Notes under the pieces: model-generated
The model's database searches: none
Told to the model about the DNA's origin: nothing
The model's input: only the letters and a program-made list of their open reading frames with translations
Made by a program: the position numbers and the translations under genes
DNA from: Acidimicrobiales bacterium
GTDB taxonomy: Bacteria; Actinomycetota; Acidimicrobiia; Acidimicrobiales; JACCXE01
Length of the DNA: 34,730 nucleotides
Direction: 5' to 3'
NCBI GenBank assembly: GCA_035546775.1
Contig: DASZWD010000024.1
Span: forward strand, 1-34,730
In this document: piece by piece, positions 1-18,983 of the stretch
Layout: every line of letters begins with the position of its first letter
How positions within the stretch are numbered: the first letter of the stretch is position 1

Positions 1-411
1 TTCGTCGACGCCCACCACCTCGAAGAATGGGAACACGGCGGCCGCACCGACATCGACAACCTCCTCCTGCTGTGCCGCTTCCACCACAACGCCATCCACC
101 ACCGCGGCTTCACCGTCAAGAAAGGCCCCCGCCAAACGTTCCGGTTCTTCAACCCCGACGGCATCGAACTCATCGCCGCCCCCACACCCGCCACACCCAC
201 CGGCACCATCCCTGCAACCGGTGCGTCAGGCCGACCGATCACACCCGACACCCCACTACCGAACTGGGACGGCCACCACCCCGACTACGCCACCGCCATC
301 GAAGGCCTCATGTGGCTCGAAGAACGCGCACAACCTCGACCCGGTGGCGGTGTAGCGGAGCGCGTCAGGCGATGTAGTTGCCGCCGTCGCAGACGATCGT
401 CTGGCCGGTGA
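1..411 (+). CDS. HNH endonuclease-like protein, C-terminal part (5' end outside window)
   Basis: Reading frame 1 is open from the first base to a TGA at 409-411. The translation begins FVDAHHLEEWEHGGRTDIDN and continues with LLLLCRFHHNAIHH. The HH, the Asn of the DNL segment and the C-x3-HH cluster are the metal-binding core of HNH nucleases of the type common in actinobacteria as DUF222/13E12-like proteins. In that family the HNH core lies near the C-terminus, so only the tail is visible here. After the core comes a Pro/Thr-rich stretch with no recognisable domain. The last 47 bases overlap the 3' end of the convergent SDR gene. Activity and target cannot be judged from the fragment. Confidence 0.75.
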   Translation, partial: FVDAHHLEEWEHGGRTDIDNLLLLCRFHHNAIHHRGFTVKKGPRQTFRFFNPDGIELIAAPTPATPTGTIPATGASGRPITPDTPLPNWDGHHPDYATAIEGLMWLEERAQPRPGGGVAERVRRCSCRRRRRSSGR

Positions 412-1111
412 TGTAGCCGGCGGCTTCCGATGCGAGGAACGCGAGGACGGGGCCGATATCGCGCTCGGGGTCGCCGAGGCGGCCGAGCGCGACGCGGGAT
501 TCGAGGAACGGCTTGAGGTCGGGGTTTTTGTGGAAGGCGTAGGACAGCGCGTCGGTGGCGGCGAGGGGCGCGATGCAGTTGACGGTGACGCCGTCGGGTC
601 CCCACTCGCGCGCCAGTGACATCGCGAGCCCGCGCTGGCCGGCCTTCACCGCCGCGTACAGCGGCAACGAATCGCTGCCTTCGATGCCCGCCGCGGAACT
701 CACGAGGATCAACCGGCCGCACTCGCTCGCCTTGAGATGTGCCGATGCCGCCTGCGCACACCAGATCGACGCCCACACCGCCGAGCGCGACGTCCGCTCC
801 CACTCGTCATCGCCCGCGTCCTCGACGCGGTATGGACGGCCGGTGCCGGTGAAGGCGTTGTGCACCATCACGTCGAGCCCGCCGAACTCGTCGACGCCCC
901 GCGCCACCGCGGCGAAGATCGCGTCGCGCGACAGCACGTCGGTTGGCACGCAGATCGCCCGGCCGCCCGCGGCGCGGATCTCCTCGGCGACGGGCTCGCC
1001 GTTGTCGGCGGTCCGCGACGCCACCACGACGGCGTGGCCGGCGGCCCCGAGTCCCAGCGCACACCCGCGACCGACGCCCCGGCCTGCGCCGGTGACGAGC
1101 GCGACGCTCAC
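365..1111 (-). CDS. Short-chain dehydrogenase/reductase (SDR)
   Basis: A 248-residue classical SDR, normal length. It shows the Rossmann nucleotide motif TGAGRGVGRG (residues 7-16), a catalytic Ser in LVSSAAG and the YxxxK pair in LYAAVKAG. The usual NNAG is altered to HNAFTG. The C-terminal DGG segment (VCDGGNYIA) is typical of the family. It presumably oxidises or reduces a hydroxyl/keto group with NAD(P)(H); substrate unknown. The frame stays open upstream, but GTG at 1111 is chosen because it overlaps the stop of the preceding half-SDR gene as GTGA (1108-1111), giving a complete Rossmann fold with a short N-terminus. The two genes are therefore likely co-translated. Confidence 0.85.
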   Translation of the reverse strand: MSVALVTGAGRGVGRGCALGLGAAGHAVVVASRTADNGEPVAEEIRAAGGRAICVPTDVLSRDAIFAAVARGVDEFGGLDVMVHNAFTGTGRPYRVEDAGDDEWERTSRSAVWASIWCAQAASAHLKASECGRLILVSSAAGIEGSDSLPLYAAVKAGQRGLAMSLAREWGPDGVTVNCIAPLAATDALSYAFHKNPDLKPFLESRVALGRLGDPERDIGPVLAFLASEAAGYITGQTIVCDGGNYIA

Positions 1112-1446
1112 AGCGTCTTGCCCGTCACGGCGCCGCTGCTGAGGAACTCGACGACGGCCGGCGCGGCATCGCCGACGATGCAGTTGACCGTGACGCCTTC
1201 GTCGGCCCACTGCCGCGCCGCGCTCAGCGCCAGGATCCGCACCGTCTCGCTCGCCGGCCCAACCGTCGCCGGCAGCACGAACACGACACGGCGCACGCCG
1301 TCGGCGCGGCCTTCCTGCAGCGCGCGCAGGGCGCCGCGCGCCGGCACGTCGTAGCGCGCCGCGATCTCGTCGTCGGTCCACGCCTCGATCGGCAAGGGAT
1401 CGTCCGGCACGTCGACGTGGTGCACCACGACATTGGGTTCGGCCAC
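1108..1446 (-). CDS. Half-size SDR-like protein lacking the nucleotide-binding half
   Basis: A 112-residue protein resembling only the C-terminal half of an SDR. RRVVFVLPATVG corresponds to the beta-5/catalytic Ser region, and LSAARQWADEGVTVNCIV to the helix and strand after the active site (compare LAREWGPDGVTVNCIA in the neighbouring SDR). FLSSGAVTGKTL matches the C-terminal FLASEAAGYITGQT segment. The glycine-rich motif is absent and the YxxxK pair is not recognisable, so it is probably not catalytic by itself. It may be a structural or regulatory partner of the downstream SDR, whose GTG start overlaps its stop by 4 bases. GTG start at 1446; only 17 bases separate it from the divergent cyclase gene. 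Confidence 0.65.
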   Translation of the reverse strand: MAEPNVVVHHVDVPDDPLPIEAWTDDEIAARYDVPARGALRALQEGRADGVRRVVFVLPATVGPASETVRILALSAARQWADEGVTVNCIVGDAAPAVVEFLSSGAVTGKTL

Positions 1447-1463: not shown

Positions 1464-2390
1464 ATGCCGGTCCCCGAGTCGTTCCGCGCCCTGGCGGCCA
1501 AGGTCAACAACTGGGGGCGGTGGGGCGACGACGACGAACGCGGCACCCTGAACCTGATCACCGACGACGTGCGCCGCCGCGCCGCCGCGCTGGTCAAGAC
1601 CGGCAAAGCCTTCCCCCTCGCCATCGCGCTGTCGGAGGACGGGCCGCAGCTCGGCTTCATCCCCGGGCGCGTCAACCCGACGCGCACGATGCACATGATC
1701 AACGAACCATCCTTCGGCGACCCGACGATGTTCTGTTCGAGCGACGACGCCGTCACCATGGGACTCCAAGCCGGCACGCACTGGGACTCGCTCGCCCACG
1801 TGTCCTACGACGGGCGCCTCTACAACGGCTACGACCCGGCGACGATCGACGAGCGCGGCGCGGCGAAGGGCGGCATCGACAAGATCGGCGCCCTCGTCGG
1901 CCGCGGCGTGCTGCTCGACGTGGCGCGGGCAAACGGCGTCGACCGCCTCGAACCGGGCTACTCGATCACCGGCGCTGATCTCGACGCCGCCGCCGAACTC
2001 GCACGGGTCACCGTCGAGCCCGGCGACATCGTGCTCATCCGCACCGGCCAGATGCAGCTCCTCCACGCCGGTGACAAGGTCGGCTACACGCACCCGAGCC
2101 CCGGCCCGTCGATCCACTGCGTCGAGTGGTTCCACGCCCACGACATTGCGGCGGCCGCCACCGACACGTTGGTCTTCGAGGCGTTTCCCGGCGACGACCC
2201 CGATTTCCTGCTGCCCGTCCACCTGCTCGACATCGTCGAGATGGGTCTCACGCAGGGACAGAACTGGGACCTCGAGGCGCTCGCCGTCGACTGCGCGCGC
2301 GACGGCGTCTACGCGTTCTTCCTCGGCGCCACCCCCGAGCCCTTCGTCGGTGGCCTCGGAGCCCCGGTTGCCCCTGTCGCCATAAAATAG
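1464..2390 (+). CDS. Cyclase-family metal-dependent hydrolase (kynurenine formamidase-like fold)
   Basis: A 308-residue protein of the cyclase family (PF04199 type). Its metal motif is clear: GTHWDSLAH at residues 104-112, equivalent to the family HGTHxDxxxH with the first His replaced by Ala (QAGTH). NPTRTMHMIN and VEWFHAHDIAAAATD are also family-like. Characterised members hydrolyse amides, lactones or cyclic diketones; the substrate here is unknown. ATG at 1464 is preferred over an in-frame TTG at 1455 because TTG lies inside the putative -10 box. The stop codon TAG (2388-2390) forms the first bases of a KstR-type box controlling the next gene. It sits upstream of a luciferase-like enzyme on the same strand, suggesting a shared pathway. 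Confidence 0.8.
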   Translation: MPVPESFRALAAKVNNWGRWGDDDERGTLNLITDDVRRRAAALVKTGKAFPLAIALSEDGPQLGFIPGRVNPTRTMHMINEPSFGDPTMFCSSDDAVTMGLQAGTHWDSLAHVSYDGRLYNGYDPATIDERGAAKGGIDKIGALVGRGVLLDVARANGVDRLEPGYSITGADLDAAAELARVTVEPGDIVLIRTGQMQLLHAGDKVGYTHPSPGPSIHCVEWFHAHDIAAAATDTLVFEAFPGDDPDFLLPVHLLDIVEMGLTQGQNWDLEALAVDCARDGVYAFFLGATPEPFVGGLGAPVAPVAIK

Positions 2391-2410: not shown

Positions 2411-3541
2411 ATGGTGGAATTCGGGATTTTCAACAGCCTCTACCTGCCCCAGGTCCTGAAGGACAAGGACCCCGTCAACGCCGAGCACAACCGGCTGATG
2501 GACGAGATCGAGTGGGTGAAGGCGGCCGACCGATCCGGGTTCAAGTACACGTGGGCGACCGAGCACCACTTCCTCACCGAGTACTCGCACCTGTCGGCCA
2601 ACGAGGCGTTCCTCGCCTACGTGGCCGGCGTCACCAACCGCATCCACATCGGCAGCGGCATCTTCAACATCACGCCGCCGGTGAGCGCGCCGGCGCGCGT
2701 CGCCGAGAAGGTGGCGATGCTCGACCACCTCAGCGGCGGTCGTTTCGAGTTCGGCATGGGCCGCGGTTCGAGCTCGACCGAGCAGAAGGGCTTCGGCATC
2801 GACGACCCTGAGCTGACCCGCGAGATGTTCGACGAGGTCATCCCCGAGTTCAAGAAGATGTGGCGCGACGAGCCGTACTCGTTCGACGGCAAGTTCTTCT
2901 CGATGCCGGAACGCAACGTGCTGCCCAAGCCCTACACCAAGCCGCACCCGCCGATGTGGGTCGCCGCCGGCAGCCCGTCGACCTTCGAGAAGGCGGCGCA
3001 GATGGGCCTCGGCGTGCTGTGCTTCACCACCGGCTCCCCCAAGACGCTCGCCCCGCTCATCGAGACGTACAAGCGTGAGATCAAGAACGCCGAGCCCGTC
3101 GGCGAGTACGTCAACAACAACGTGATGGTCACGTCGCAGATGCTGTGTTTGGAGGACGGGCAGAAGGCGCGCGACATCGCCTGCAACATGACCAGCGGCT
3201 ACCACACGTCACTCGTATTCCGGTATCTCGACACGTTCCCCAAGCCACCGGGCATTCCCGAGTGGCCCGCGCTCATCCCCGACGCCACGCCCGAGCAGAT
3301 GGAGCAGTCGATCAAGAACGGGCTGACCACGATCGGCACCCCCGACGAGTGCGCGAAGTGCGTCCAGAACTACGCCGACATCGGCGCCGACCAGATCACC
3401 TTCGGCATGCTCAGCTCCACCATGCCCGTCGAGATCGCCGTCGAGGCGGTGGAGACGTTCGGCAAGTACGTCATCCCGCAGTTCGACACCGACCCGATGC
3501 ACTCCACCCAGCGCCAGCGCGAGGAGCAGCTCGGCTCTTGA
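2411..3541 (+). CDS. Luciferase-like (LLM) flavin-dependent monooxygenase
   Basis: A 376-residue TIM-barrel protein of the bacterial luciferase-like family. Family signatures are FKYTWATEHHFL (residues about 38-49), the strand and loop RIHIGSGIFN, the DHLSGGRFEFGMGRG segment (about 107-121) and PPMWVAAGSPSTFEKAA in the C-terminal half. Relatives use FMN or F420 for oxygenation or hydride transfer; which one cannot be told by eye. ATG at 2411 has no Shine-Dalgarno and follows a -10-like hexamer at the 7-nt spacing seen elsewhere. A KstR-type box immediately upstream suggests co-regulation with the steroid-type genes at 10-20 kb. It ends 7 bases before the stop of the convergent transporter operon, with no hairpin between. 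Confidence 0.85.
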   Translation: MVEFGIFNSLYLPQVLKDKDPVNAEHNRLMDEIEWVKAADRSGFKYTWATEHHFLTEYSHLSANEAFLAYVAGVTNRIHIGSGIFNITPPVSAPARVAEKVAMLDHLSGGRFEFGMGRGSSSTEQKGFGIDDPELTREMFDEVIPEFKKMWRDEPYSFDGKFFSMPERNVLPKPYTKPHPPMWVAAGSPSTFEKAAQMGLGVLCFTTGSPKTLAPLIETYKREIKNAEPVGEYVNNNVMVTSQMLCLEDGQKARDIACNMTSGYHTSLVFRYLDTFPKPPGIPEWPALIPDATPEQMEQSIKNGLTTIGTPDECAKCVQNYADIGADQITFGMLSSTMPVEIAVEAVETFGKYVIPQFDTDPMHSTQRQREEQLGS

Positions 3542-3548
3542 CCTGCGG

Positions 3549-4079
3549 TTAGGGGTTACACATCCCGCACGGCTTGAGCGTCGTGGTCGCGGGGTCGACG
3601 CGCTTGAGGCCGGTGCGGCCCTTCACGCTGGCGCAATCGGGACGGTGGTACAGCGTGCCCCGCGACGTCGTGACGTAGGCGACGGGCGCCACCAGGTCCG
3701 GTCGTTCGCCGCGGGCCAGCAGCTCTTCGATGCGCTCGAGCACCGCACGGGTCTCGGCCGTGTCGCGGCGCGTGGCGTGCACCAGCTGGGTCATCCAGTA
3801 GGCGAAGTAGGCGAAGCCACCGGCGAACACGAAGCCGAGGCCGAGCATGCCGCCGCTGATCGAATACGGAATCTGCTCGTACACGTTGGGCGTGTGCGAC
3901 GCGCCCCACCACCCGAGCACGATCATCACGAGCCCGAGCGGCGCGGCGATCGACCCGATGATGAGCAGCACCCGGGCTGCGTCGGTCGCCTGCGTGCGCG
4001 TGCGCAGCGACGAGATCGCCCGCGCCAGCCGTCGGTCCCGCTCGGTGTCCACGGTGATGTCCCCTGTCGTCGTCGTCAT
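3549..4079 (-). CDS. Small membrane protein with a C-terminal Ada-like zinc-ribbon motif
   Basis: A 176-residue protein. After a charged N-terminal helix it has two predicted membrane segments, at about residues 38-60 (VLLIIGSIAAPLGLVMIVLG) and 76-98. A Glu/Arg-rich helix follows (RAVLERIEELLARGE), then a tail with YHRPDC and LKPCGMCNP. The His, the Cys and the CxxC pair resemble the zinc site of the Ada N-terminal domain and of many short actinobacterial proteins. It is the last gene of the Liv-type operon, and its ATG overlaps the livF stop (ATGA). No characterised function is known to me; a role with the transporter is inferred from position only. Confidence 0.7.
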   Translation of the reverse strand: MTTTTGDITVDTERDRRLARAISSLRTRTQATDAARVLLIIGSIAAPLGLVMIVLGWWGASHTPNVYEQIPYSISGGMLGLGFVFAGGFAYFAYWMTQLVHATRRDTAETRAVLERIEELLARGERPDLVAPVAYVTTSRGTLYHRPDCASVKGRTGLKRVDPATTTLKPCGMCNP

Positions 4080-4789
4080 GCGGCCCCTCCGAGATACGCG
4101 GCGGAAACTTCTTCGGCGATGTCCTTCGGCTCGCCGACGTTGAGCACCACGCCGTGCGCCATGACGGCGGCGTAGTCGGCGACGGCGAGCGCCGTCTGGG
4201 CGAACTGCTCGACCAGCAGGATCGAGATGCCCTCGTCGCGGATCTGGCGCACGAGGTCGTACAGCTGCCCCACGATGATCGGCGCCAGGCCGATCGAGAT
4301 CTCGTCGAGCAACAGCAGCGAGGGTTCGGTCACGAGGGCGCGCGCCATCGCCAGCATCTGCTGCTCACCGCCCGACAGCGTGCCCGCCAACTGCTTGCGC
4401 CGTTCCTTCAGCCGCGGAAACCGGGTGAAGGCGCGCTCTTCGACGTCGCGCTGCCGCAGCCCGCCCTTGTAGGTCATCATGCGCAGGTTCTCGTTGACCG
4501 TGAGGTTGGGGAACACCCCGCGCCCCTCGGGGATGGTGCACACCCCGGCACGGGCCAGCTGCTCGGGCTCGGCCCCGTTGACGTGGATCCCGGCGACGTG
4601 CACGCAGCCGCTCGTCGGCTCGAGCCGCCCGCTGGCGACCTTGTGGATCGTCGACTTGCCGGCGCCGTTGGGACCGAGGAGCGCGAACACGCAGCCCGCG
4701 GGTACGGCGAAGGACACGCCGTGGAGCACTTCGATGCGGCCGTAGGCGGCGCGCACGTCGCGCAGTTCGAGGGCCGGCGCGGTCGTCAC
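4076..4789 (-). CDS. livF: Branched-chain-type ABC transporter ATPase, LivF family
   Basis: A 237-residue ABC ATPase. It carries Walker A GPNGAGKST (about residues 38-46), the signature LSGGEQQML, Walker B LLLLDEIS and the H-loop region ILLVEQ. The length, the IPEGRGVFPNLTVNENL segment and the pairing with LivG identify the LivF subfamily. It energises import by the LivHM channel, with LivG as the second ATPase. Substrates of this superfamily extend beyond leucine/isoleucine/valine to amides, aromatic acids and other carboxylates, so the name gives the family, not the cargo. GTG at 4789 overlaps the stop of the upstream surface-protein gene as GTGA. Confidence 0.92.
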   Translation of the reverse strand: MTTAPALELRDVRAAYGRIEVLHGVSFAVPAGCVFALLGPNGAGKSTIHKVASGRLEPTSGCVHVAGIHVNGAEPEQLARAGVCTIPEGRGVFPNLTVNENLRMMTYKGGLRQRDVEERAFTRFPRLKERRKQLAGTLSGGEQQMLAMARALVTEPSLLLLDEISIGLAPIIVGQLYDLVRQIRDEGISILLVEQFAQTALAVADYAAVMAHGVVLNVGEPKDIAEEVSAAYLGGAA

Positions 4790-6060
4790 GCCCCGTCCTC
4801 CCCCGGCAGCGTGCAGGCGATCTCGGCGGTCGGGTCGGCGAGCACCGCGGTGTTCAATCGCCGCATGCCGACGGCGAGCAGCAGCGCGGCGAGCGCGCCG
4901 AGCACCAGCGCCGCGGCCGACACCGGCTTGCCCGTCGCTGCGGCCGCCGTGGTGGGCAGGCTCACCGCGGGACCAGGGGTGCGCCGCCCGCCGCCCGACG
5001 TGTCACCCAAGCCGCCGAGCGCGGTCAGGTCGGGCCCACCGGTGAGCGCGTAGTCCAGGTTGCTGTTGTCGCCGAGCACGCCGGTGTCGGCGCCGCCGAC
5101 AAGGTCGCCGACGGCGTCGTCGCTCGACGACGCAGCCGACGCGGCGCGCGCCCCGCCGAGCACGAACCCGACGGAGTAACCCTGCTGCGTGACCGTGATG
5201 ATGAGCGAGTTGGCGCTCAGCACCGCGGCGGCACCGTTGATCTCCTTCGTCGCCGGGCCCAGGGTGACGCTGATCCCCGCCGAGGCCAGCGCCTGCTTCG
5301 CCACCTTCTGCAGCGCGGCGTCGAGCGGCTGGTTGGTCGAGCCGAAGTGCAGTCCCTTCTCGTCGATGGTGACGCCCTGTCCCATCACCGTGGCGCCGGC
5401 GATCGACGTGTGCGCCTCGCCGCTACCGGTCGTGCCGTCGCTGGTGGCCTTGGCCGTGCTCACCACCTGGTCGATCTGCAGCACGCCGGCCACGTTGAGG
5501 TTCTGCACGACGCTGCGCGCCGTTGCCACCGCGGCGCTGTCGGTGGCGCGCGTGCTCGAACTGGTCGTCAGCTTCTCGGCGGCGCCCGGCAACAGCGAGA
5601 GGCCCTGGGCGCCGGCTTCGGACTCGGCCGATGTGTTGTCGGCCCGCGAGCGCATCGTCATGCCCGGCACGTCGTAGGTGGTCGTGGGCGGGTCCTGGCC
5701 GGTGCGCGCTTCGGCGCGCACGGGATCCACGAGCAGCGCGGCGATCTCGGGTGGGAAGCCGGGCACCAGCAAGCCGAGCAGCGTGCCGCCGTTGGCGACG
5801 GTGGCGCCGGGCCACGCACTGCTCGCCAGGGCATAACCCGTCCCCGACTGCTGCGTCGTGCTCGCCTGCGGGATGTCGAGTTCGGGTTGGATGCGCTGGT
5901 CGGGGATCACGGTGAACACCTGCACGCCCCGGGCGTCGGCCGACATGTCGTAGCCGAGCAAACCTTCGGCGCCGGCGTGGGGTGCGTCGACGACGAACAG
6001 CGCCGCGCTCAACAGTCCGGCCACGACGCCGGCCAGCACGGTCCGGGCGCCGCGTCTCAT
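4786..6060 (-). CDS. Exported, C-terminally membrane-anchored surface protein in the liv operon
   Basis: A 424-residue protein I do not recognise. It has a signal peptide (MRRGARTV, hydrophobic core, likely cleavage after AGA at 29-31). A long Ala/Ser/Thr/Gly-rich extracellular part follows, ending in a low-complexity Gly/Pro/Thr linker. A hydrophobic segment at about residues 385-402 (VLGALAALLLAVG) is followed by MRR and a short cytoplasmic tail, giving type I topology. No enzyme motif is visible. The gene is wedged between livG and livF with 4-base overlaps on both sides, so it is made together with the transporter. It may present substrate to the binding protein, or span the cell wall. 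ATG at 6060 is chosen because it starts the signal peptide and overlaps the livG stop (ATGA). Confidence 0.75.
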   Translation of the reverse strand: MRRGARTVLAGVVAGLLSAALFVVDAPHAGAEGLLGYDMSADARGVQVFTVIPDQRIQPELDIPQASTTQQSGTGYALASSAWPGATVANGGTLLGLLVPGFPPEIAALLVDPVRAEARTGQDPPTTTYDVPGMTMRSRADNTSAESEAGAQGLSLLPGAAEKLTTSSSTRATDSAAVATARSVVQNLNVAGVLQIDQVVSTAKATSDGTTGSGEAHTSIAGATVMGQGVTIDEKGLHFGSTNQPLDAALQKVAKQALASAGISVTLGPATKEINGAAAVLSANSLIITVTQQGYSVGFVLGGARAASAASSSDDAVGDLVGGADTGVLGDNSNLDYALTGGPDLTALGGLGDTSGGGRRTPGPAVSLPTTAAAATGKPVSAAALVLGALAALLLAVGMRRLNTAVLADPTAEIACTLPGEDGA

Positions 6061-6782
6061 ACCGGCACGTCCAGTCCGAGATAGGCGGCCTGCACGGCCC
6101 CGTCGGCTTGCACCTGCGCCGGTGTGCCGTTGGCGATCAGGCGGCCGAAGTCGAGCACGTAGAGCTCCTCGCAGATGCGCATGACGAGTTCGACGTCGTG
6201 CTCGACGAGCAGGATCGCCATGCCGTCGACCGCCAGTTCGAGCAGCAGGTCCCCGAGGCCCTCCGTCTCGTCCGGGTCGAGACCCGAGCCGGGCTCGTCG
6301 AGCAGCAGCAGCTTCGGACGGATCGCCAGGGCGCGGCCCAACTCGACGAGGCGCGCCATGCCGGTGGGCATGGCGTCGACCGGCGCGTCGGCGACGTCGC
6401 GCAACCCGACGCGCTCCAGGATCTCGTCGGCCACGGCGCCGGGCTCTTCGGTGGCCGAGTCCCACGAGTTGCGGATCTCGGCGGCCACAAGGATGTTCTC
6501 GCGCGCGCTCAACGCGCCGAACACCTCGAGGCGCTGGAACGTGCGCCCGACGCGGCGCCGGGCGCGGTGGTGCGGCTTGAGCTTGGTGACGTCCTCGCCG
6601 TCGATGATCACGCGACCCCGTGTCGGCGCTTGCAGGCCGGTGATGACGTTGAACAGCGTCGTCTTGCCGGCGCCGTTCGGGCCGATCAGCCCGGTGACGC
6701 GTCCGGCTTCGGCGGTCAGGTCGACGGCGCTCAGCGCCGCGAGGACGCCGAAGCGCACGTCGACGTCGGCGACGTCAAGCAT
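6057..6782 (-). CDS. livG: Branched-chain-type ABC transporter ATPase, LivG family
   Basis: A 241-residue ABC ATPase. It has Walker A IGPNGAGKTT (about residues 33-42), the LivG-typical GRTFQRLEVFGALSARENI after the Q-loop, Walker B LLLLDEPGSGLDP and H-loop LLVEHDVELV. The signature position reads PTGMARLVELGRAL instead of LSGGQ; such relaxed signatures occur in actinobacterial LivG proteins. It pairs with LivF to drive the LivHM permease. ATG at 6782 begins directly with the ATPase domain and overlaps the livHM stop by 8 bases. The frame is open further upstream, but that part only shadows the permease gene. Confidence 0.92.
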   Translation of the reverse strand: MLDVADVDVRFGVLAALSAVDLTAEAGRVTGLIGPNGAGKTTLFNVITGLQAPTRGRVIIDGEDVTKLKPHHRARRRVGRTFQRLEVFGALSARENILVAAEIRNSWDSATEEPGAVADEILERVGLRDVADAPVDAMPTGMARLVELGRALAIRPKLLLLDEPGSGLDPDETEGLGDLLLELAVDGMAILLVEHDVELVMRICEELYVLDFGRLIANGTPAQVQADGAVQAAYLGLDVPV

Positions 6783-8676
6783 TGGTCGGCGCCACTTCGA
6801 ACTCGGCGGTCGGCTGCGCCTTCGACCCCTGGAGGCTGTCGCGCACCTTCTCGAGGTTCGGCCGCACCTCCGACGTCCAGCCGTTGGGGTTGCGCCCGAG
6901 GGCGATGGCGCCGAGGCCGGCGCCGAGGAACGACAGGCTCGGGATGCCGGGCAGCGCCCGCTGGATCTTGGGGAACAGCCCGAAGGTAAGACCGCCGAAC
7001 AGCGCGCCCGACACCGTGTTGACGCCGGCGACGTAGACCAGCAGCAGCAGCACGAGGCTCTGGAGGACGTCGAAGTCGTTGAGGCCAACCTGGCCGCGCA
7101 GGCCGCCGTAGAACGCGCCGGCCAGGCCGGCCATGGCCGACGACAACGCGAACAGGGCGAGCTTGGTGAAAGTCAGATTGAGACCGAGGGTGGCACACGC
7201 GGCGGGGCTCTCGCGCATGGCGACGACGCGCCGGCCGAATTTGCCGCGCCGCAACGCCAGCACGCCGATGCCGGCCAGCGCGAACGTGACGCACACCAGC
7301 ATGAAGAACGCCTTGTCGCCGTGGAACGACACCCCGAGGATCGACGGGCGCCCGACGGCGAGGCGGCCGCCGTAGCCGAACACGTTGTGGTTCTTGAAGA
7401 ACAGCGCGCTCATGCCCTGGGCGAAGGCGAGCGTCGACAGCGCCAGGTACAGGCCCTGCAAGCGGATCGCCGGCAGTGCAGCCAAGGCACCGGCCAACCC
7501 GGCGAGGCCGGCGGCCGCCAGGAACCCGAGGATCGACCCGCCGCCGAAGAACTTGCCCATCCCGAACGCGCCGATGCCGACGAAGGTCATCTGCGCCAGC
7601 GACACCTGGCCGCCATAACCGGTCAGCAGCACCAGCGACAGCATGATGAGCGCGAACACCACGCCCTGGCCGACGGTGAACAGGTCGACGGGCGACAGCA
7701 CCTGGGCGAGCACTCCGGCGATGGCGATGAACGCCGCGGCGCCGAGCAGCGACTCGCGCAGCGAGGCGACGCGCGGGGCGCGATGGGTCGTCACCACACG
7801 CCCGACGCGCAGACGCGCCTGGGGCAGGATCAGCAGCACGGCGTAGAGGAAGATGATCGGTAGCGCCGGCTTGACGATGTTGAGGATGTTCGAGGGCAGG
7901 TTGCCGATGGTGTGCGCTTCGGCGAGACCGAGGGCGATGCCGCCGACGAAGGTGAGCGGCAGGCTCTTGAGGCGGCCGACCATCGCCGCCGCGTAACCGT
8001 TGATGACGAGCAGCGTCAGCAGGATGATGTCGAGCGACACGAGCGGCGCCAGCAGGATGCCGGCGAGTCCCGCCAGCGACGCGCCGAGCGCCCAGCTGAC
8101 CGCGGCGACGCGATCGGGCGCCGCGCCGTTGAGCGCGGTGAGCTCAGGATCGTCGACGACGGCGCGCATCGCCGTGCCGATCCGGGTGCGGAACAGGAAC
8201 AGGCGCAGGAAGATGGCGACGAGGACCGCCACGCTCATCATCGTGAGCTGGTGATAGCTGACGTAGACGCTGAAGAGCTTCAGGCGGTGGCCGGCGAAGA
8301 ATTCCGGCATCGACCGCGGCTCGCCCGGATCCCACACCGCGGTGGCCACACCGATGCACGTCAGCAACAAGCCGAGCGTGATCACCAGCGTGGTCCCGAC
8401 GTTCGAGCCGTAGAGGCGGCGCATCAACACGCGCTGAATGCCGGCACCCAGCAGCGGGGCGATGACGCCGAGTACGACGACAAGGCCGAGCCACTGCGGC
8501 CAGTGATCCTTCACCGTCAGCTGCCAGTAGGTGAACGCCATCAGCATCCCGATGGCGCCGTGGGCGAAGTTGAAGATGCCCGACGTCGTGTACGTGACGA
8601 CGAGGCCGCTCGCCGTGAGCGCGTAGATGCACCCGGTGGCGATGCCGATGACGGTGTAGGCGAGGAACGAGGTCAC
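6775..8676 (-). CDS. livHM: Fused LivH-LivM permease of a branched-chain-type ABC transporter
   Basis: A 633-residue polytopic membrane protein. Residues about 1-290 form a LivH-type permease (GCIYALTASGLVVTYTTSGI, FNFAHGAIGML, RTRIGTAMRAVVDDPELTAL). Residues about 310-610 form a LivM-type permease (LLTGYGGQVSLAQMTFVGIG, GLYLALSTLAFA, FGRRVVAMRESPAACATLGL). The fusion occurs in various actinobacteria and supplies the whole transmembrane channel from one gene. GTG at 8676 follows the livK TAA with no gap. A short polar tail ending in PTNA runs into the livG start. Expected partners are LivK outside and LivG/LivF inside. Confidence 0.92.
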   Translation of the reverse strand: MTSFLAYTVIGIATGCIYALTASGLVVTYTTSGIFNFAHGAIGMLMAFTYWQLTVKDHWPQWLGLVVVLGVIAPLLGAGIQRVLMRRLYGSNVGTTLVITLGLLLTCIGVATAVWDPGEPRSMPEFFAGHRLKLFSVYVSYHQLTMMSVAVLVAIFLRLFLFRTRIGTAMRAVVDDPELTALNGAAPDRVAAVSWALGASLAGLAGILLAPLVSLDIILLTLLVINGYAAAMVGRLKSLPLTFVGGIALGLAEAHTIGNLPSNILNIVKPALPIIFLYAVLLILPQARLRVGRVVTTHRAPRVASLRESLLGAAAFIAIAGVLAQVLSPVDLFTVGQGVVFALIMLSLVLLTGYGGQVSLAQMTFVGIGAFGMGKFFGGGSILGFLAAAGLAGLAGALAALPAIRLQGLYLALSTLAFAQGMSALFFKNHNVFGYGGRLAVGRPSILGVSFHGDKAFFMLVCVTFALAGIGVLALRRGKFGRRVVAMRESPAACATLGLNLTFTKLALFALSSAMAGLAGAFYGGLRGQVGLNDFDVLQSLVLLLLVYVAGVNTVSGALFGGLTFGLFPKIQRALPGIPSLSFLGAGLGAIALGRNPNGWTSEVRPNLEKVRDSLQGSKAQPTAEFEVAPTNA

Positions 8677-10122
8677 TTAGCCGAAGTACCAGGGTCCGTC
8701 GTCGCAGCGGTAACCGTCCTTGGGTGAATCGATGCGCACGTACTTGCCGCCGGTGACCTTGAGCAGGATCCAGCACGCGGCGGGCCCCTTGGCCCCCGGG
8801 TTCGACGTGGCGAACAGCCCGCTGTCGTCGAAGTTGCCGATCTTCTTCACTTCGGCGTTGATGGCGGCCCGCGTCACCTTCGGGCCGACGTTCTCCATCG
8901 CCTGGAACAGCAGCCGACCTTCGGCCCACGCGTAGGCGGTGAAGATGTCGGGCGTGAACCCGGGCTTCACTTTCTGCACCCACTTGTCGAACAGCGCCAC
9001 CTCGGGGATCGAGGCCGCGTCCTCCCCGCCGTACATCGCGGTCGACGACGTCACCAGCATGCCGTCGGCGGCGCTGCCCGCCTTGGCGATCACGTCGGCG
9101 TCGTAGCCCGACCCGCCGACGAGGAAGACCTCGGGCTTGAAGTTCTGCGACTGCATCGCCTTGGCAAAGCGCGCCGCCGTCGCGTCGTCGACCGAGATCA
9201 GATACACCATCTTCACGCCGCTGTCGCGCATGCGCACGACGTCGGAGGTGAAGTCCGTCTCCGTCGAGCCGATCGCCCGGTCGTAGAGCCACTTGTAACC
9301 GACGCTCTCGCCCGCCGCCCGGTACCCCTTGTGCAGCTTGACCGCGGATGGGATGTCGGACTCGATGCTGCCGACCTTGGTGATCACGTCGGGGTTGTGC
9401 GCCTTGAAGTAGTTGAACGGGCCGAGGTCGCCGCCCTTGGCCGACGGCTGGATCGAGAAGTTCGTCGGCACGGCGAAGCGGGCGTCGCCCAGCGCATGGC
9501 TGAGGTCGGGGATCTTCGCCTGCGTGAGTTGGTCTGCCGCGGCGTCGTCGTAGAGCGAGAACGACCCGAGCATGGCGAACGCCTTGCCGATGAGGTCGAT
9601 GGTCTGCGTGCGGTTCTGGCCGGTGTCGAACTGGTCGTCGCGGGCGTCGAGCTTGAACGTGCGACCCCATAGGCCGCCGAGCGAGTTCTCGTAGGCGACG
9701 ACGGCCTGCGTGCCCACGACCGCGCCGGCGAACAGTCCCGGCACCGGGCCCGTGAGCGTGCTCACGTTGCCGAGGGTGATCGACGACGCGGTGACGCCGG
9801 TGTCGGTGGCGCCGCCGTTGCCGCCGGCGGGCAGAGCGTGCACGTTCACGTTCGACTGGCTCGCGCCGCCGCCGGCGCTCGTGGTGTTCGTCGTGTTGTT
9901 GCCGCTGCCACCCGACGACGTGTCGCCCGCCGCGAGGGTGGTGTCGGTCGACTGGTCGCCGCCCTCGTCGCTGCCGTCGACGCTGGACCCCTGCACGGCG
10001 GTGCCGGTTTGACCGGCGCGCACCGCGTTGCGTTGCGCGTCAGTCAGGCGGGCGCCGCACGCGCTCGCCAGCAGCGCGAGCACGAGCAGCAGAGGTGCGA
10101 CTCGAAGGTTGTGTCTCGTCAC
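8677..10122 (-). CDS. livK: Branched-chain-type substrate-binding lipoprotein, LivK family
   Basis: A 481-residue type I periplasmic-binding-fold protein. GTG at 10122 begins a lipoprotein signal peptide (VTRHNLRVAP, LLLVLALLASAC, lipidated Cys at 22); GGAGG and a run of G lie just upstream. The binding fold starts around residue 100 (ITLGNVSTLTGPVPGLFAGA) and continues with LIGKAFAMLGSFSLYDDAAA, then MVYLISVDDATAARFAKAMQ and AYAWAEGRLLFQAM. Between Cys22 and the fold is an unusually long Ser/Thr/Gly/Asn linker that would hold the domain away from the membrane. It is first in the operon, adjacent to livHM, and has its own promoter region. The ligand is unknown; amino acid-like, amide or carboxylate ligands are all possible. 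Confidence 0.88.
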   Translation of the reverse strand: MTRHNLRVAPLLLVLALLASACGARLTDAQRNAVRAGQTGTAVQGSSVDGSDEGGDQSTDTTLAAGDTSSGGSGNNTTNTTSAGGGASQSNVNVHALPAGGNGGATDTGVTASSITLGNVSTLTGPVPGLFAGAVVGTQAVVAYENSLGGLWGRTFKLDARDDQFDTGQNRTQTIDLIGKAFAMLGSFSLYDDAAADQLTQAKIPDLSHALGDARFAVPTNFSIQPSAKGGDLGPFNYFKAHNPDVITKVGSIESDIPSAVKLHKGYRAAGESVGYKWLYDRAIGSTETDFTSDVVRMRDSGVKMVYLISVDDATAARFAKAMQSQNFKPEVFLVGGSGYDADVIAKAGSAADGMLVTSSTAMYGGEDAASIPEVALFDKWVQKVKPGFTPDIFTAYAWAEGRLLFQAMENVGPKVTRAAINAEVKKIGNFDDSGLFATSNPGAKGPAACWILLKVTGGKYVRIDSPKDGYRCDDGPWYFG

Positions 10123-10151
10123 AGGCCCCCCATGCCTCCGTGGTGGTGCGA

Positions 10152-10193
10152 AATCTAACGCACCGTCAGAAACGGTGTGACGCACGTCACACC
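10152..10193 (-). promoter_or_regulatory. livK promoter with CRP/GlxR-type operator and a second inverted repeat
   Basis: A perfect inverted repeat GGTGTGACG-CA-CGTCACACC spans 10174-10193 and contains TGTGA-N6-TCACA (10176-10191), the canonical CRP-family site (GlxR/Crp in actinobacteria). A second repeat, CACCGT-cagaa-ACGGTG, lies at 10161-10177 and overlaps it. TAGATT (minus strand, 10157-10152) fits a -10 box and leaves a leader with GGAGG before the livK GTG. The CRP site centre is about 38 bases upstream of the expected start of transcription, near a class II activator position. Alternative: on the minus strand the same palindrome follows the ltp2-like TAA and precedes GTTTCT, so it could act as a weak terminator. 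Confidence 0.55.
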
Positions 10194-10198
10194 CATGA

Positions 10199-11368
10199 TT
10201 ATGCGGCCCCAAGGATCAGTCCGCTGGTCGGCACCCCGGTTCCGGCCGTGACCAGCACATGTTCGACCCACGGGAGCTGGTTCACGCTTGTCCCCCGGAT
10301 CTGGCGGACGGCCTCGGCGATGCCGTTCATCCCGTGGATGTAGGCCTCGCCGAGCTGGCCGCCGTTGGTGTTGATCGGCAGCTGACCACCGAGCTCGATG
10401 CCGGCCTCGACGATGAAGTCCTTCGCCTCACCCCGCCCGCAGAACCCGAACTCCTCGATCTGGCACAGCACAAAGGGGGTGAAGTGGTCGTAGAACACCG
10501 CGGTCTGGATGTCGGCGGGGGTGAGGCCCGACGTGGCCCACAGCTGCTCGGCCACCAGGCCCATTTCGGGCAACCCGGTCATGTCGTCGTCGTAGTAGCT
10601 CGTCATCATCTGCTGGTTGCGCGCCGCGCCCTGGGCCGCCGCCGTGATGACCGCCGGCGGGTTGGGACAGTCGCGGGCCCGCTCGAGAGTCGTGATCACG
10701 AGCGCCTGGGCGCCGTCGCTTTCCTGGCAGCAGTCGAGCAGGTGCAGCGGCTCGGAGATCCAGCGCGAGTTCTGATGGTCCTCGAGCGAGATCGGCTGCT
10801 TGTAGAACCACGCCGCGGGGTTGGTCGACGCGTGGAAGCGGTCGGCCACCGCGATGCGGCCGAAGTCCTCGCTGGTCGCGCCGAACTCGTGCATGTAGCG
10901 GCGGGCGAACATCGCCACCCACTGCGCCGGCGTGAGCAGCCCGTAGGGCGAGTACCAGCCGTAGTGGGCGCTCTCCGTGGTCGGCTCAGCGGGACGGCCC
11001 TGCACGCCGGCGCCGAAGCGGCGCCCCGAGCGCTCGTTGAAGGCGCGGTAACACACGACGACCTCCGCCACGCCCGTCGCCACCGCCATCGCCGCCTGCA
11101 TGACCGTGGCCGCGCCGGCCCCGCCGCCGTAGTGCACGCGGCTGAACAGCTTGAGCCCGTCCATGCCGAGTTGACGCGCCACTTCGATCTCGGGGTTGTT
11201 GTCCATGGTGAAGGTGACGAGGCCGTCGACCTCGGCCGGCGCGATGCCGGCGTCGTCGAGCGCCGCTTTCACCGATTCCACGGCGAGGCGCAGCTCGCTG
11301 CGCCCCGAGTCCTTGGAGAACTCCGTGGCGCCGATGCCGGCGATGGCCGTCTGCCCGCCGATGTTCAC
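10199..11368 (-). CDS. ltp2: Ltp2-like thiolase-fold aldolase (steroid side-chain retroaldolase family)
   Basis: A 389-residue thiolase-fold protein of the lipid-transfer/Ltp2 type. The nucleophilic Cys region of true thiolases is replaced by VHYGGGAGAATVMQAAMAVA. The C-terminal thiolase GHP motif is replaced by NGGQLGEAYIHGMNGIAEAV, with a Tyr in the EAYIHG segment. Both are expected of Ltp2, which cleaves the 17-hydroxy C22-CoA ester to androstenedione and propionyl-CoA in complex with the DUF35 part of ChsH2. GTG at 11368 overlaps the ChsH1-like stop (GTGA). Its order after ChsH2-like and ChsH1-like genes is that of the mycobacterial igr operon. The family is secure; the steroid substrate is inferred from context. 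Confidence 0.8.
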   Translation of the reverse strand: MNIGGQTAIAGIGATEFSKDSGRSELRLAVESVKAALDDAGIAPAEVDGLVTFTMDNNPEIEVARQLGMDGLKLFSRVHYGGGAGAATVMQAAMAVATGVAEVVVCYRAFNERSGRRFGAGVQGRPAEPTTESAHYGWYSPYGLLTPAQWVAMFARRYMHEFGATSEDFGRIAVADRFHASTNPAAWFYKQPISLEDHQNSRWISEPLHLLDCCQESDGAQALVITTLERARDCPNPPAVITAAAQGAARNQQMMTSYYDDDMTGLPEMGLVAEQLWATSGLTPADIQTAVFYDHFTPFVLCQIEEFGFCGRGEAKDFIVEAGIELGGQLPINTNGGQLGEAYIHGMNGIAEAVRQIRGTSVNQLPWVEHVLVTAGTGVPTSGLILGAA

Positions 11369-11751: not shown

Positions 11752-12680
11752 CGGTACTGCTCCGCGAGCAGCGCGCCGAGACGGGCCAGTTGCGACGACG
11801 CACCCCCGAGCGCGTTGGCGATCTGTTTGCCCCACAGGAAGTAGCGGTGGATCGGGTAGTCGACGTCGGCGCCCATACCGCCGTGCAGGTGCTGGGTGGC
11901 GTACACGACGCGCTCGCCCCCCTCGGCCGCCCACCATTTGGCGATGGCGACTTCCTTGGACGCCTCGAGACCGTTGTCGAGCCGCCACGCCGCTTGCAGC
12001 ATCGTGACCTCCATCGCTTCGGTGTCGATGTACGCGTCGGCGGCGCGCAGCGCCACGCCCTGGAACGACGACAGCGGCTTGCCGAACTGCTCGCGCTGCG
12101 ACGTGTACTCGGCGGTGCGACGCAACGCTTCCTTCGCCACCCCCAGTTGCAGGGCGGCGAGCGCGACATGGGCCCGCTGGCGCATCCAGTCGACGTCGGC
12201 GCCGGGCAGCGGCTCGCCGCCGGTGAAGGTGATGTTCGCCGCGCCGCGCTGGTCGGTGGTGGCGACGACTTCGCGCTGGGGGTCTGACAGGAACACGCCG
12301 TCGGGGCGCACGACCAGCACGCGGTCGGCGACGTCGCCCGCGGGGACGGCGGTCGCTTCGAAGGCGGCGGTGAGCACCACGTCGCCCCGGACCACCGCCG
12401 GCAGCCACTCCTTCTGCTGCACGTCAGTGCCGAACCGGGCGAGCGGCAACGCCCCGAGGGCGATCGTCTCCAGCAACGGCACGTCGGCCAGGGCGCGGCC
12501 CTGCGCTTCGAGCACGAGGCACAGTTCGACGAGGCCGCGGCCGCTGCCGCCGTGGGCCTCGGGGATGCACAACCCGAGCAGGTCGGCATCGGCGAGATCG
12601 CTCCAGCCGCCCCCGCCGCCGAAGATCTGACCCGCCAGGTCGCGCAGCGCCCGCTGGTCGTCGTCGAGGTTGAAGTCCAC
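11748..12680 (-). CDS. Acyl-CoA dehydrogenase small subunit, ChsE1/FadE28-like
   Basis: A 310-residue half-type acyl-CoA dehydrogenase. It has the N-terminal helical domain (DDDQRALRDLAGQIFG) and a degenerate middle domain without the xSEPxAGSD flavin motif. The C-terminal helical domain is well kept: SQREQFGKPLSSFQGVALRA and HLHGGMGADVDYPIHRYFLW, the latter carrying the HGG that contacts FAD. Such proteins pair with a partner that has the opposite set of motifs to form alpha2beta2 enzymes with one FAD per heterodimer; the partner is presumably the product of 13597-14757. The GTG start shares one base with the stop of the ChsH2-like gene (TAGTG). In mycobacteria the two dehydrogenase genes are adjacent; here ChsH2 separates them. 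Confidence 0.8.
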   Translation of the reverse strand: MDFNLDDDQRALRDLAGQIFGGGGGWSDLADADLLGLCIPEAHGGSGRGLVELCLVLEAQGRALADVPLLETIALGALPLARFGTDVQQKEWLPAVVRGDVVLTAAFEATAVPAGDVADRVLVVRPDGVFLSDPQREVVATTDQRGAANITFTGGEPLPGADVDWMRQRAHVALAALQLGVAKEALRRTAEYTSQREQFGKPLSSFQGVALRAADAYIDTEAMEVTMLQAAWRLDNGLEASKEVAIAKWWAAEGGERVVYATQHLHGGMGADVDYPIHRYFLWGKQIANALGGASSQLARLGALLAEQYR

Positions 12681-13600
12681 TAGCTCGCCTCCACCGGGTG
12701 GAACTGCGGCAGCGTCAGCTCGTCGTCGAACTGCACCATCTCGCATTCGACCGCCATGCCGATGGTGACGTCGGCGGGGTCGACGCCCACGAGGTTCGAC
12801 ACCAGGCGCGTGCCTTCGTCGAGGGCGATCACCGCGACGACGAGCGGGTAGTCGAACGCCGGCACCTGGGGGTAGTGGTTGACCACGAAGCTGTAGACGG
12901 TGCCGCGCCCGGCCGACTCGACCGTGTCCCACTCCAGCGAATGGCACGCCGGACACATCGGGCCCGGCGGGTGGCGCAGCTTCCCGCACGCCGCACAGCG
13001 CTGGATCAGCAACTTGCCCTCGTTCACGCCGTCATACCAGAAGGCGTTGTCGTGGGTGATCGCCGGCCGCGGGCGGCGCGGCCGCGCCGGCGCCGCGGGG
13101 CGAGGCGCGAACTTGAGCATGCGGAAGCGCATCGTGCCGACGAGCTCGCCGTCCTGATCGCGGTACTCCTGGAGCGTCGTGACGAAGTGGCCGACGCCGA
13201 GTGCCGTCGTCTTCTCCTCCGAGATCGACTCGATGGTCGTGGTCGTCGTGATGACGTCGCCCGGGCGCAGGTAGCGGAAGTACTCCTGGTCGCTGTTGGT
13301 GGCCACGACCGACGTGAAGCCGGCGGCGTCGAGTTCACGGAACAGCGCGTCCTGCTCGGTGGCGCCGGTGCGACCGCCGAGGCCGCGCATCGACCACGCC
13401 TGCAGCATCGTCGGCGGCGCCACGATGCCGTCGTGACCCGCGGCGCGCGCCGCCGCGTCGTCGACGTAGATCGGGTTGGTGTCGCCCACCGCGTCACACC
13501 AGTGGCGGATCATGGCGGCGTTGACGGCGTCGAGCGCCACGCTCGGCGGGCCGATCACGCGGCCTTCATACGCGCGCACGCGTTCGAGAAAGTCGCTCAA
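12680..13600 (-). CDS. chsH2: ChsH2-like protein: MaoC domain fused to DUF35 (OB fold with Zn ribbon)
   Basis: A 306-residue two-domain protein. Residues 1 to about 165 are a MaoC-like hotdog in which the canonical GDxNPxH reads GDTNPIY, so the catalytic His is lost. Residues about 185-300 are DUF35: a rubredoxin-like zinc ribbon CAACGKLRHPPGPMCPAC followed by an OB fold (GRGTVYSFVVNHYPQVPAF). This is the architecture of ChsH2, whose MaoC half pairs with ChsH1 and whose DUF35 half binds Ltp2, channelling product from hydration to carbon-carbon cleavage. A TTG start at 13600 is chosen because it overlaps the upstream stop as TTGA, the spacing used throughout the operon, and gives a full N-terminal domain. 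Confidence 0.85.
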   Translation of the reverse strand: MSDFLERVRAYEGRVIGPPSVALDAVNAAMIRHWCDAVGDTNPIYVDDAAARAAGHDGIVAPPTMLQAWSMRGLGGRTGATEQDALFRELDAAGFTSVVATNSDQEYFRYLRPGDVITTTTTIESISEEKTTALGVGHFVTTLQEYRDQDGELVGTMRFRMLKFAPRPAAPARPRRPRPAITHDNAFWYDGVNEGKLLIQRCAACGKLRHPPGPMCPACHSLEWDTVESAGRGTVYSFVVNHYPQVPAFDYPLVVAVIALDEGTRLVSNLVGVDPADVTIGMAVECEMVQFDDELTLPQFHPVEAS

Positions 13601-16832: not shown

Positions 16833-17806
16833 ACGGGCTCCGCCGCGAGCAGGGCGCCGAGCTTGCGCAGCTGCTTGGTGGCGCCGCCGAGGCTGAGCTC
16901 GAGTTGCTTGGCCCACAGGAAGTAGCGGTGCAGCGGGTAGTCGCGGTCGACGCCGATGCCACCGTGCAGGTGCTGGGCCGCGTGCACGACGCGCTGGCCA
17001 CCCTCGGCCGCCCAGAACTTCGCCACCGCCACCTCCGCCGCCGCCGGTAGCCCCTCGGACAGCCGCCACGCCGCCTGCCACAGCGTGAGGCGGATCGCTT
17101 CGGTGTCGATGTACGCGTCCGCGGCGCGCTGGCCCACGGCCTGGAACGTGCCGATCGGCTTGTCGAACTGCTGGCGCGAGCCGGTGTACTCGGCCGTCAT
17201 CGCCAGCGCCTGCTCGCAGCAGCCGAGCATCACCGCGCACGTGGCCACCGTCATACGCTGGAGCAACCACTCGACGGCGTCGGGCCCGCCGATCTGGGTC
17301 AGCGGCGCGTCGCGGAAGTCGAGGCGCGCCTCGGGGATGCCCGACGTCGTGTCGAGGCGCGTGCGCGTCACGCCCGGTCCTTCGAGGTCGAGCAGGAACA
17401 GGCCTTCGGGGGTGTCGACGAGCGCGTGCGACGCGTCGAGCCCGGCCGGGACGCAGATCTTGACGCCGTCCTGGGGGCTTTCGACCAGCGCGCTCGTCAG
17501 CACGCGGGCCGGGTCGTCGAGCAGGTCGGTGGCGCCGAAGTGGCGCAGCGCGGCGGCGGTGACCAGCGTCGGCAGCAGCGGGATCGGCGCGCTGAAGCGT
17601 CCGACCTGTTCGAGCATCAGGCACGTCGCCACGAAGCCGAATCCGTCGAGCAGGCCGGCCTGGGCGAAGGCCGCCCACGTGTCGCGGTCGAAGTAGGTGC
17701 CGGCGCGTTCGAGGGCGCGCAGGCGTTCGTGGGTGCACTTGTCGCCGAGGATCTGCGCGGCGAGATCGCGCGCCGCTTCCTCTTCTTCGCTGAAGGTGAA
17801 GTCCAT
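16829..17806 (-). CDS. Acyl-CoA dehydrogenase small subunit (second pair)
   Basis: A 325-residue half-type acyl-CoA dehydrogenase of the same kind as the product of 11748-12680. The N-terminal helical domain starts FSEEEEAARDLAAQI, the middle domain lacks the SEPxAGTD flavin motif, and the C-terminal domain keeps YTGSRQQFDKPIGTFQAVGQ and HLHGGIGVDRDYPLHRYFLW. It should pair with the large subunit encoded immediately upstream, since ATG at 17806 overlaps that stop by one base (TAATG). Similarity to the igr-like small subunit (WAAEGGQRVVHAAQHLHGG against WAAEGGERVVYATQHLHGG) points to duplication of the pair. The exact acyl chain is unknown. Confidence 0.8.
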   Translation of the reverse strand: MDFTFSEEEEAARDLAAQILGDKCTHERLRALERAGTYFDRDTWAAFAQAGLLDGFGFVATCLMLEQVGRFSAPIPLLPTLVTAAALRHFGATDLLDDPARVLTSALVESPQDGVKICVPAGLDASHALVDTPEGLFLLDLEGPGVTRTRLDTTSGIPEARLDFRDAPLTQIGGPDAVEWLLQRMTVATCAVMLGCCEQALAMTAEYTGSRQQFDKPIGTFQAVGQRAADAYIDTEAIRLTLWQAAWRLSEGLPAAAEVAVAKFWAAEGGQRVVHAAQHLHGGIGVDRDYPLHRYFLWAKQLELSLGGATKQLRKLGALLAAEPV

Positions 17807-18966
17807 TAGCGCAGGCTCCTTGGCATGCCGAGGCCGAACATGGCGATGAGGTCGCGCTGGACCTCGTTGACGCCGCCACCGAAGGTGAGGATGAGCAGGC
17901 TGCGGTAGTAGCGCTCGAGGCGCGCCTTGAGCACCGCTTCGGGTGAGTCCTGCGTGAGGTACGCGGCCTCGCCGATGATCTCGAACAGCAGGCGGAAGGC
18001 TTCGAGGTAGAACTCGGTGCCGAACACCTTCGTGGTCGACGCGTCGGCGATGTTGAGGCCGGCGCCCGTCGAGGCCGACCACGCCACCTTCCAGTTGATG
18101 AGCTTGAGGAACTCGAGGCGGGCGTAGACCCGCGCCAGGTTCATCTGCACCCACTCCTGCTCGATCAGCTTCGTTTCCTGCGCGTACTGGCGCACGTCGT
18201 GGAGCAGCGACTCGGGGATGCCCGTCGAGCACAGCGTCACCCGTTCGTGGTTCAGCTGGTTGGTGATCAGGTTCCAGCCGTTGTTCTCGCCGCCGACGCA
18301 GTTGGTGACGGGGACGCGCACGTCGTCGTAGAAGGTCTGGTTGATGTCGTGCTCGCTCAGCAGGTGCATCGGCTGCACCGAGAAGCCCGGCGTGTCGCGG
18401 GGCACGATGATGATCGAGATGCCCTTGTGCTTGGACACCTCGGGGTTCGTGCGCGCCGCCAGCCACACGTAGTCGGCGTCGCTCGACAGCGACGTGAAGA
18501 TCTTCTGGCCGTTGATCACGTACTCGTCGCCGTCGCGTACGGCGCGGGTGGTGAGCGACGCCAGGTCGGTGCCCGCACCCGGTTCGCTGTAGCCGACGCA
18601 GAACGTGATTTCGCCCCGCAGGATGCGCGGCAGGTAGTCGTTCTTCTGCTCGTCGGTGCCGAACTGCATGATCGTCGGCCCGACGGTGTTGATCGTCAGC
18701 ATCGGGACGGGGGCGCCGCAGCGCATCGACTCGTCGAAGAACACGAACTGCTCGATCTGGCTGCGGCCCTGACCGCCGTACTCCTTCGGCCAGCCGATGC
18801 CGACCCAGCCGTCGGCCGCCATCTGCTTGAAGATCCGCCGCGTGGTCGGGCCGACGCCGTGCTCCTTGCCCAGCTCCGCCTCGACCTCAGGCGTCAGCAG
18901 CTCGCGGTAGTAGGCCCGGAGTTCCTGGCGCAGCTTCTCCTGTTCCTCGGTGTAACCGATGTACAC
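17806..18966 (-). CDS. Acyl-CoA dehydrogenase large subunit (second pair)
   Basis: A 386-residue protein, the same length as the igr-like large subunit. It shows GWVGIGWPKEYGGQGRSQIE, VGYSEPGAGTDLASLTTRAV and INGQKIFTS, and ends LTFGGGVNEVQRDLIAM. It lacks the HGG segment, which the downstream small subunit provides, so the pair is expected to form an alpha2beta2 enzyme. GTG at 18966 is preceded by an excellent ribosome site, GGAGGAGG at 18971-18978, and is the first start with one. The gene is divergent from the Rv3520c-like gene, and a KstR-type box lies 18 bases upstream of the start, so both directions are probably controlled together. Confidence 0.83.
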   Translation of the reverse strand: MYIGYTEEQEKLRQELRAYYRELLTPEVEAELGKEHGVGPTTRRIFKQMAADGWVGIGWPKEYGGQGRSQIEQFVFFDESMRCGAPVPMLTINTVGPTIMQFGTDEQKNDYLPRILRGEITFCVGYSEPGAGTDLASLTTRAVRDGDEYVINGQKIFTSLSSDADYVWLAARTNPEVSKHKGISIIIVPRDTPGFSVQPMHLLSEHDINQTFYDDVRVPVTNCVGGENNGWNLITNQLNHERVTLCSTGIPESLLHDVRQYAQETKLIEQEWVQMNLARVYARLEFLKLINWKVAWSASTGAGLNIADASTTKVFGTEFYLEAFRLLFEIIGEAAYLTQDSPEAVLKARLERYYRSLLILTFGGGVNEVQRDLIAMFGLGMPRSLR

Positions 18967-18983
18967 GCGGCCTCCTCCAAAAT

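Follow-up and report, generated by a model that had tools for sequence, protein, structure and literature searches.

A half-size pseudo-SDR gene overlapping a complete SDR gene in an Acidimicrobiales bacterium

The human heterotetrameric ketoacyl reductase (PDB 4cql, 4cqm) is built of SDR proteins, which we take to be HSD17B8 and CBR4, and the SDR active site is kept in both of its subunits. A heteromer of half-size pieces is known from steroid side-chain degradation, where ChsH1 and ChsH2 form a pair of half-size hydratases. Inactive subunits occur in BbsCD, the (alpha-hydroxybenzyl)succinyl-CoA dehydrogenase of anaerobic toluene degradation (PDB 7pcs), which, as far as the citing text describes it, is a heterotetrameric SDR with inactive pseudoenzyme subunits (10.1111/febs.16216, cited in PMC10818641) and belongs to a CoA beta-oxidation context (PMC10818641).

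Here we describe a gene for a 112-residue pseudo-SDR that lies directly upstream of a complete SDR gene in the window, by which we mean the whole 34,730-nucleotide stretch of Acidimicrobiales DNA that was analysed (Table 1). As in BbsCD, an inactive and an active SDR protein are encoded together, and here it is the gene context that points to an acyl-CoA substrate. Unlike BbsCD, the window copy is without half of the fold, and the organisms, and probably the substrates, differ. A PDB search with the active SDR brings up BbsD as a relative (E 3.3e-33); BbsC (7pcs chain A) was not among the 60 matches listed, nor among the structural matches listed. We call the pair, which is known here from its genes, a BbsCD-like arrangement and not a member of BbsCD. 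In contrast to the human reductase, one protein of the pair has lost the Lys and usually the Tyr. What recalls ChsH1/ChsH2 is a putative heteromer with a half-size piece in a pathway of similar kind, and the window has a ChsH2-like gene, but those proteins have the MaoC fold, which is unrelated to SDR, and represent a split of another kind. An earlier note on this DNA had called a dedicated non-catalytic SDR protein co-encoded with an SDR unusual; such a protein is real and conserved, but the arrangement has a published precedent in BbsCD, as that system is described in the citing text, and it is the half-size form that is a new variant. A literature search lying largely outside subscription papers found neither the pair family nor a half-size SDR subunit described.

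The short gene and its neighbours in the window

Table 1. Positions of the pair and of neighbouring genes in the window
Feature	Position	Strand	Remark
Frame cut by contig start	1-355	+	HNH-endonuclease-like by eye
Complete classical SDR, 248 aa, predicted active partner	365..1111	-	S-Y-K and TGAGRGVG, from sequence; GTG start inside stop of short gene
GTGA stop/start overlap of short gene and SDR	1108..1111	-	NTGA overlap in 60/70 relatives, with starts taken nearest the upstream stop
Half-size pseudo-SDR, non-catalytic partner, 112 aa	1108..1446	-	GTG start, TGA stop; beta4-alphaE-beta5-alphaF-beta6-alphaG only
PF04199 cyclase-like gene, divergent	1464..2390	+	17 bp from pair
Luciferase-like (LLM) oxidoreductase	2411..3541	+	After cyclase here and in G001
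ABC transporter genes, branched-chain amino acid type (ATPase, permease, binding protein)	4076-10212	-	
ChsH2-like MaoC+DUF35 protein	12680-13600	-	Steroid-side-chain-like catabolic gene
Acyl-CoA dehydrogenase	17806-19068	-	Steroid-side-chain-like catabolic gene
AMP-binding ligase	27786-29282	-	Steroid-side-chain-like catabolic gene

The 112-residue protein is without the marks of a catalytic classical SDR. The glycine-rich TGxxxGxG cofactor motif is absent, and Pro, Val and Ser stand at the columns of the catalytic Ser, Tyr and Lys. The earlier note had reported these absences, together with the GTGA overlap with a complete downstream SDR, and both observations hold; its statement that the protein matches only the second half of an SDR holds as well, with the small correction that this half is not entire, the C-terminal beta7 'DGG' segment being missing too. 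The downstream SDR matches adh_short_C2 (1.3e-45).

By itself the 112-residue protein is barely recognisable. A Pfam search with it matched no family, and NCBIfam gave a single match below the cutoff. In a PDB search residues 62-97 matched the SDR 7wbc at E 0.65 only, and two designed helical repeat proteins scored better (E 0.043 and 0.26). A search for relatives with this protein alone as query found none, and a profile of longer relatives succeeded, so that the homology call leans on those relatives. G001, the one same-genus comparison genome (the single other of the family, 77% complete), has the same gene order of SDR, longer upstream protein, divergent cyclase and LLM gene. Its upstream protein is a pseudo-SDR of 177 residues counted from the matching GTG, which is preceded by the bases GCGTCAAACTACGGC that the window shares, and the 112-residue protein matches it at E 1.5e-13. 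Profile A1, which was built from 13 upstream proteins with the window protein excluded, finds the 112-residue protein in its own genome at E 1.3e-12; a score of 103.8 bits comes from a profile that contained it. The protein is thus homologous to the dead SDRs, with their Glu at the position after the lost Lys (Lys+1) and their ARQW stretch, its E67 and W80 falling in invariant columns of an alignment with 70 relatives (A3), and its gene has the same place directly upstream of the partner SDR, with the NTGA overlap.

GC-rich DNA is rich in spurious frames, and 39 open reading frames of at least 60 residues overlap the first 6 kb, which could favour a chance open frame, or a frameshift or assembly fragment of the downstream SDR. 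We regard such an origin as scarcely credible in view of the protein-level match to G001, the start leader shared with it and the completeness of the downstream SDR. GC by codon position in the short gene (0.79/0.49/0.93) is similar to that of neighbour genes. A crude codon-usage caller also chose the gene (score 31, threshold 15), which is weak evidence because the same caller missed the SDR and the LLM gene.

The pair in other genomes

A search of genome contigs with profile A1 gave at least 536 relatives, the best 80 of which correspond to 79 loci. These were selected with two motifs, KS[AV]ARQWG and T[LI]x[AVL]DGGxWM, which biases the sample. In 75 of these 79 loci the gene immediately before that of a Ser-Tyr-Lys SDR encodes a dead SDR, and the pair is found also in Mycobacterium, Proteobacteria and Myxococcota. 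Four loci were not counted as pairs: L087 and L142 end before the partner is readable, L107 has a run of N, and L101 shows the SDR alone, at its contig start. Of 77 dead copies picked by the profile, all have lost the Lys and 62 have lost the Tyr, and every one has Glu at Lys+1; none of the 77 profile-picked partners has this Glu, the position being Ala, Gly, Ser or Asn instead. The genes overlap by exactly 4 nt (NTGA) in 60 of 70 pairs, a count in which the starts were those nearest the upstream stop, a choice that favours short distances but not a fixed frame. A third Ser-Tyr-Lys SDR follows the pair in several proteobacteria (L096, L103, L134, L137 and Azospirillum L178).

A less biased count starts from the active SDR. 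Searching 397 genomes of the order with it (E up to 1e-50) gave 62 places in 50 genomes, and in 57 of these a profile match lies directly upstream. Read singly, these 57 upstream proteins have all lost the Lys and 54 have lost the Tyr, while all have Glu at Lys+1; their partners are Ser-Tyr-Lys in every case, with Ala or Gly, never Glu, at Lys+1. The window, with its half gene, is the 58th of the 62 places with a dead SDR upstream. A run of N breaks the upstream copy in G038; G252 and G225:C67 begin at contig ends. The upstream frame in G288 is divergent (a 50.9-bit profile match); this frame (G288:C329) aligns poorly at the catalytic columns, with no Tyr or Lys visible. The earlier note had reasoned that loss of the short gene in relatives that keep the SDR would indicate a decaying pseudogene; such loss was not seen, since the dead SDR is upstream in 58 of 62 partners and the other four are one N-interrupted copy, one weak divergent frame and two at contig edges. 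A second short copy in G179 proved only apparent, as it is truncated by a contig end.

The lack of a Pfam family or curated match might suggest an independent small protein of unrelated function that lies upstream of the SDR by chance, and the heteromer with the SDR is one that we infer. This is very improbable, however, as the pairing is near universal in the order, extends across phyla with a fixed overlap, and the tree places the dead subunits in a single group. Among the SDR frames read in the window's own genome, in 18 loci (L181-L198) out of 32 matches, there was no second pseudo-subunit; these SDRs, taken as a control, keep Tyr and Lys except L195, and the Glu mark is in none. The exception (L195, G000:C30) is an SDR with Ser and Arg at the Tyr and Lys positions.

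A quick maximum-likelihood tree (78 rows) puts the 34 dead copies on one side of a branch with SH-aLRT 100; the 34 partners are set off by another branch (SH-aLRT 96), and 10 other SDRs stand apart. Myxococcota, most Proteobacteria, Mycobacterium and some Acidimicrobiia groups recur in both halves, which differ for Sphingomonas and some basal rows. This pattern probably reflects one old duplication, followed by joint inheritance of the dead and the active SDR. L067 and L131, titled as a Bifidobacterium breve MAG, group with Acidimicrobiia, and their titles look wrong. The window dead copy has a long branch and is not beside G001, so that its place among the dead copies is unsure; even so, it groups with them and not with its own SDR, which further argues against a fragment. 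As dead and active copies are separate clades and the SDR is complete, the short gene is no part of the SDR split off by a frameshift, in agreement with what the earlier note had concluded from the complete downstream gene.

Losses and constraint in the window lineage

Compared with G001, the window copy is without 36 residues after the first two and without the last 10; a further 10 are missing at the beta5-alphaF loop in two gaps, then 6 and 3, and all these deletions are in-frame. At 112 residues it is the smallest, against 177 in G001 and 166–255 in the 70 aligned relatives. The alignment (A3) held the window and 70 of 73 references, which omitted L001, L033, L098, L101, L107, L141, L142, rows with X and duplicates; alignment A4 used 60. 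The part before beta4 spans 6–87 residues in the relatives and 7 in the window, where row starts in A3 are profile limits and not verified gene starts, and this range makes loss within the cofactor half common. From the beta5 Pro to the ARQW Trp, 70 of 70 relatives have exactly 32 residues, and it is here that they are most alike (identity 0.54); G001 keeps the 32, but the window copy has 22. After the ARQW Trp the relatives have 66–87 residues and the window 32, G001 being already short there, with an altered C-terminus. The beta7 'DGG', which does not vary among the 13 rows of A1 and is present in G001, is gone. The window copy is therefore cut in segments that are full-length in 70 of 70 relatives. 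The earlier note had proposed a search for conserved half-SDR/SDR pairs in relatives; what is conserved is the pairing of a pseudo-SDR with an SDR and not the half size, and since only the window has 112 residues, its pair represents a lineage-specific reduction.

What is left is modelled by AlphaFold2 as a compact beta4-alphaG core (mean pLDDT 92.2, pTM 0.84), a fragment model that is not proof of lone folding, with elements E6-10, H25-48, E53-58, H64-83, E86-91 and H96-102. The model resembles SDR structures with Z up to 13.7 over 110 residues, as a partial fold, and Foldseek gave it no match at E 0.001 or better (best E 4.0e-3). For the 226-residue relative from L064 the model is that of an SDR (pLDDT 93.9), with structural matches at Z up to 28.0.

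These losses raise the question of whether the dead subunit is disappearing in the window lineage. The short frame may not be needed as a protein, and would stay open because ribosomes have to terminate at GTGA for the SDR to be started; the NTGA overlap gives such a reason for its retention. Deletions in segments of invariant length, the loss of DGG, and the likewise shortened and altered C-terminus of G001 speak for erosion. So does acceleration in the window lineage, where both subunits evolve faster than in G001, with the whole pair undergoing change. Counts of unique changes (window to G001), taken against five outgroups, were 18 to 7, 20 to 11, 10 to 8, 20 to 10 and 18 to 7 for the dead gene, and 29 to 20, 30 to 17, 29 to 20, 31 to 10 and 36 to 16 for the SDR; those of the cyclase (23 to 24, 28 to 20) and LLM gene (4 to 8) were not clearly higher in the window. 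NG86 values of dN/dS between window and G001, a method in which some dS were saturated or undefined, were 0.56/0.99 for the dead gene, 0.28/0.82 for the SDR, 0.17/0.88 for the cyclase and 0.07/0.54 for LLM. The window SDR is altered at 10 positions kept by 95–100% of 44 partners and by G001, one of the changes being Lys164 in alphaF to Met. The dead subunit of the window is likewise without a conserved Lys in its alphaF.

Against erosion, conserved residues are preferentially kept. At positions where G001 shows the family consensus, the window has retained it in 17 of 19 conserved columns (>=70%) compared with 17 of 33 less conserved ones (Fisher p 0.0067); the mirror test, of G001 where the window has the consensus, gave 17 of 19 and 17 of 26 (p 0.086). 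The dN of the dead gene relative to that of its partner (2.20 for window and G001) lies inside the 5–95% range (1.39–2.63) of 728 other, non-independent pairs, as is usual for intact pairs, even if both genes are accelerated here, and the codon composition is gene-like. Taken together, we consider an eroding remnant, perhaps a gene that died recently, to be a real possibility, but not a probable one. The reading that we favour, with some reserve, is that the gene encodes the catalytically dead member of an ancient SDR enzyme made from two genes, and that this lineage has cut this member down to the portion of the fold with alphaE and alphaF.

Possible role of the pair

Because a dead partner precedes a working SDR in many bacteria of several phyla, the 112-residue protein is probably a structural subunit or its fading remnant, rather than a stray gene fragment. 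The helices alphaE and alphaF form the usual Q-axis dimer interface of SDRs. A possible role for the dead protein could be to pack onto the active SDR through alphaE and alphaF, both proteins being made together through translational coupling, and to stabilise or shape the active SDR while itself binding neither NAD(P) nor substrate. The fixed beta5-alphaF segment and the variable part before beta4 are what one would expect if alphaF were important and the cofactor half were not. The dead subunit of this genus no longer has the cofactor half, the active-site loop, the substrate loop and the C-terminal strand, and what is left of it can most likely still dock onto the partner SDR.

The active SDR is likely to be a hydroxyacyl-CoA or alicyclic alcohol dehydrogenase, as suggested by a handful of neighbourhoods. 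In Caulobacter (L106:3766-7475, + strand) two acyl-CoA dehydrogenases lie directly upstream of the pair and a MaoC-like gene is nearby. The pair neighbours an acyl-CoA dehydrogenase and an enoyl-CoA hydratase in Mycobacterium, a CoA-transferase and a thiolase in L064, a thiolase and a ferredoxin in G001, and P450, Rieske and flavin genes in Azospirillum. A cyclase homologue adjoins the pair also in G001 and in L064 and L068, the latter being two of the 79 loci. Since the genes sit among CoA beta-oxidation and ChsH2-like genes, the SDR may oxidise a hydroxyl, probably that of a hydroxyacyl-CoA or an alicyclic or steroid-like intermediate.

We tentatively propose a cross-phylum, unnamed class of SDRs that would function solely in heteromers, each translated together with a dead partner, and for which Glu next to the lost catalytic Lys would be the mark. 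The window partner, a half-fold of 112 residues serving for docking alone, would then be a minimal pseudo-subunit at the limit of such a design. Annotation can label both genes 'SDR family oxidoreductase', as in Azospirillum B510, where the upstream protein is without the Tyr and Lys, and SDRs of this class expressed alone may for this reason misbehave or seem inactive. Should the dead partner prove necessary, the catabolic SDRs of this class from Actinomycetota and Pseudomonadota would have to be studied as pairs. The sizes of the dead subunits, falling from about 250 to 112 residues, show which part such a subunit can do without and which part it keeps.
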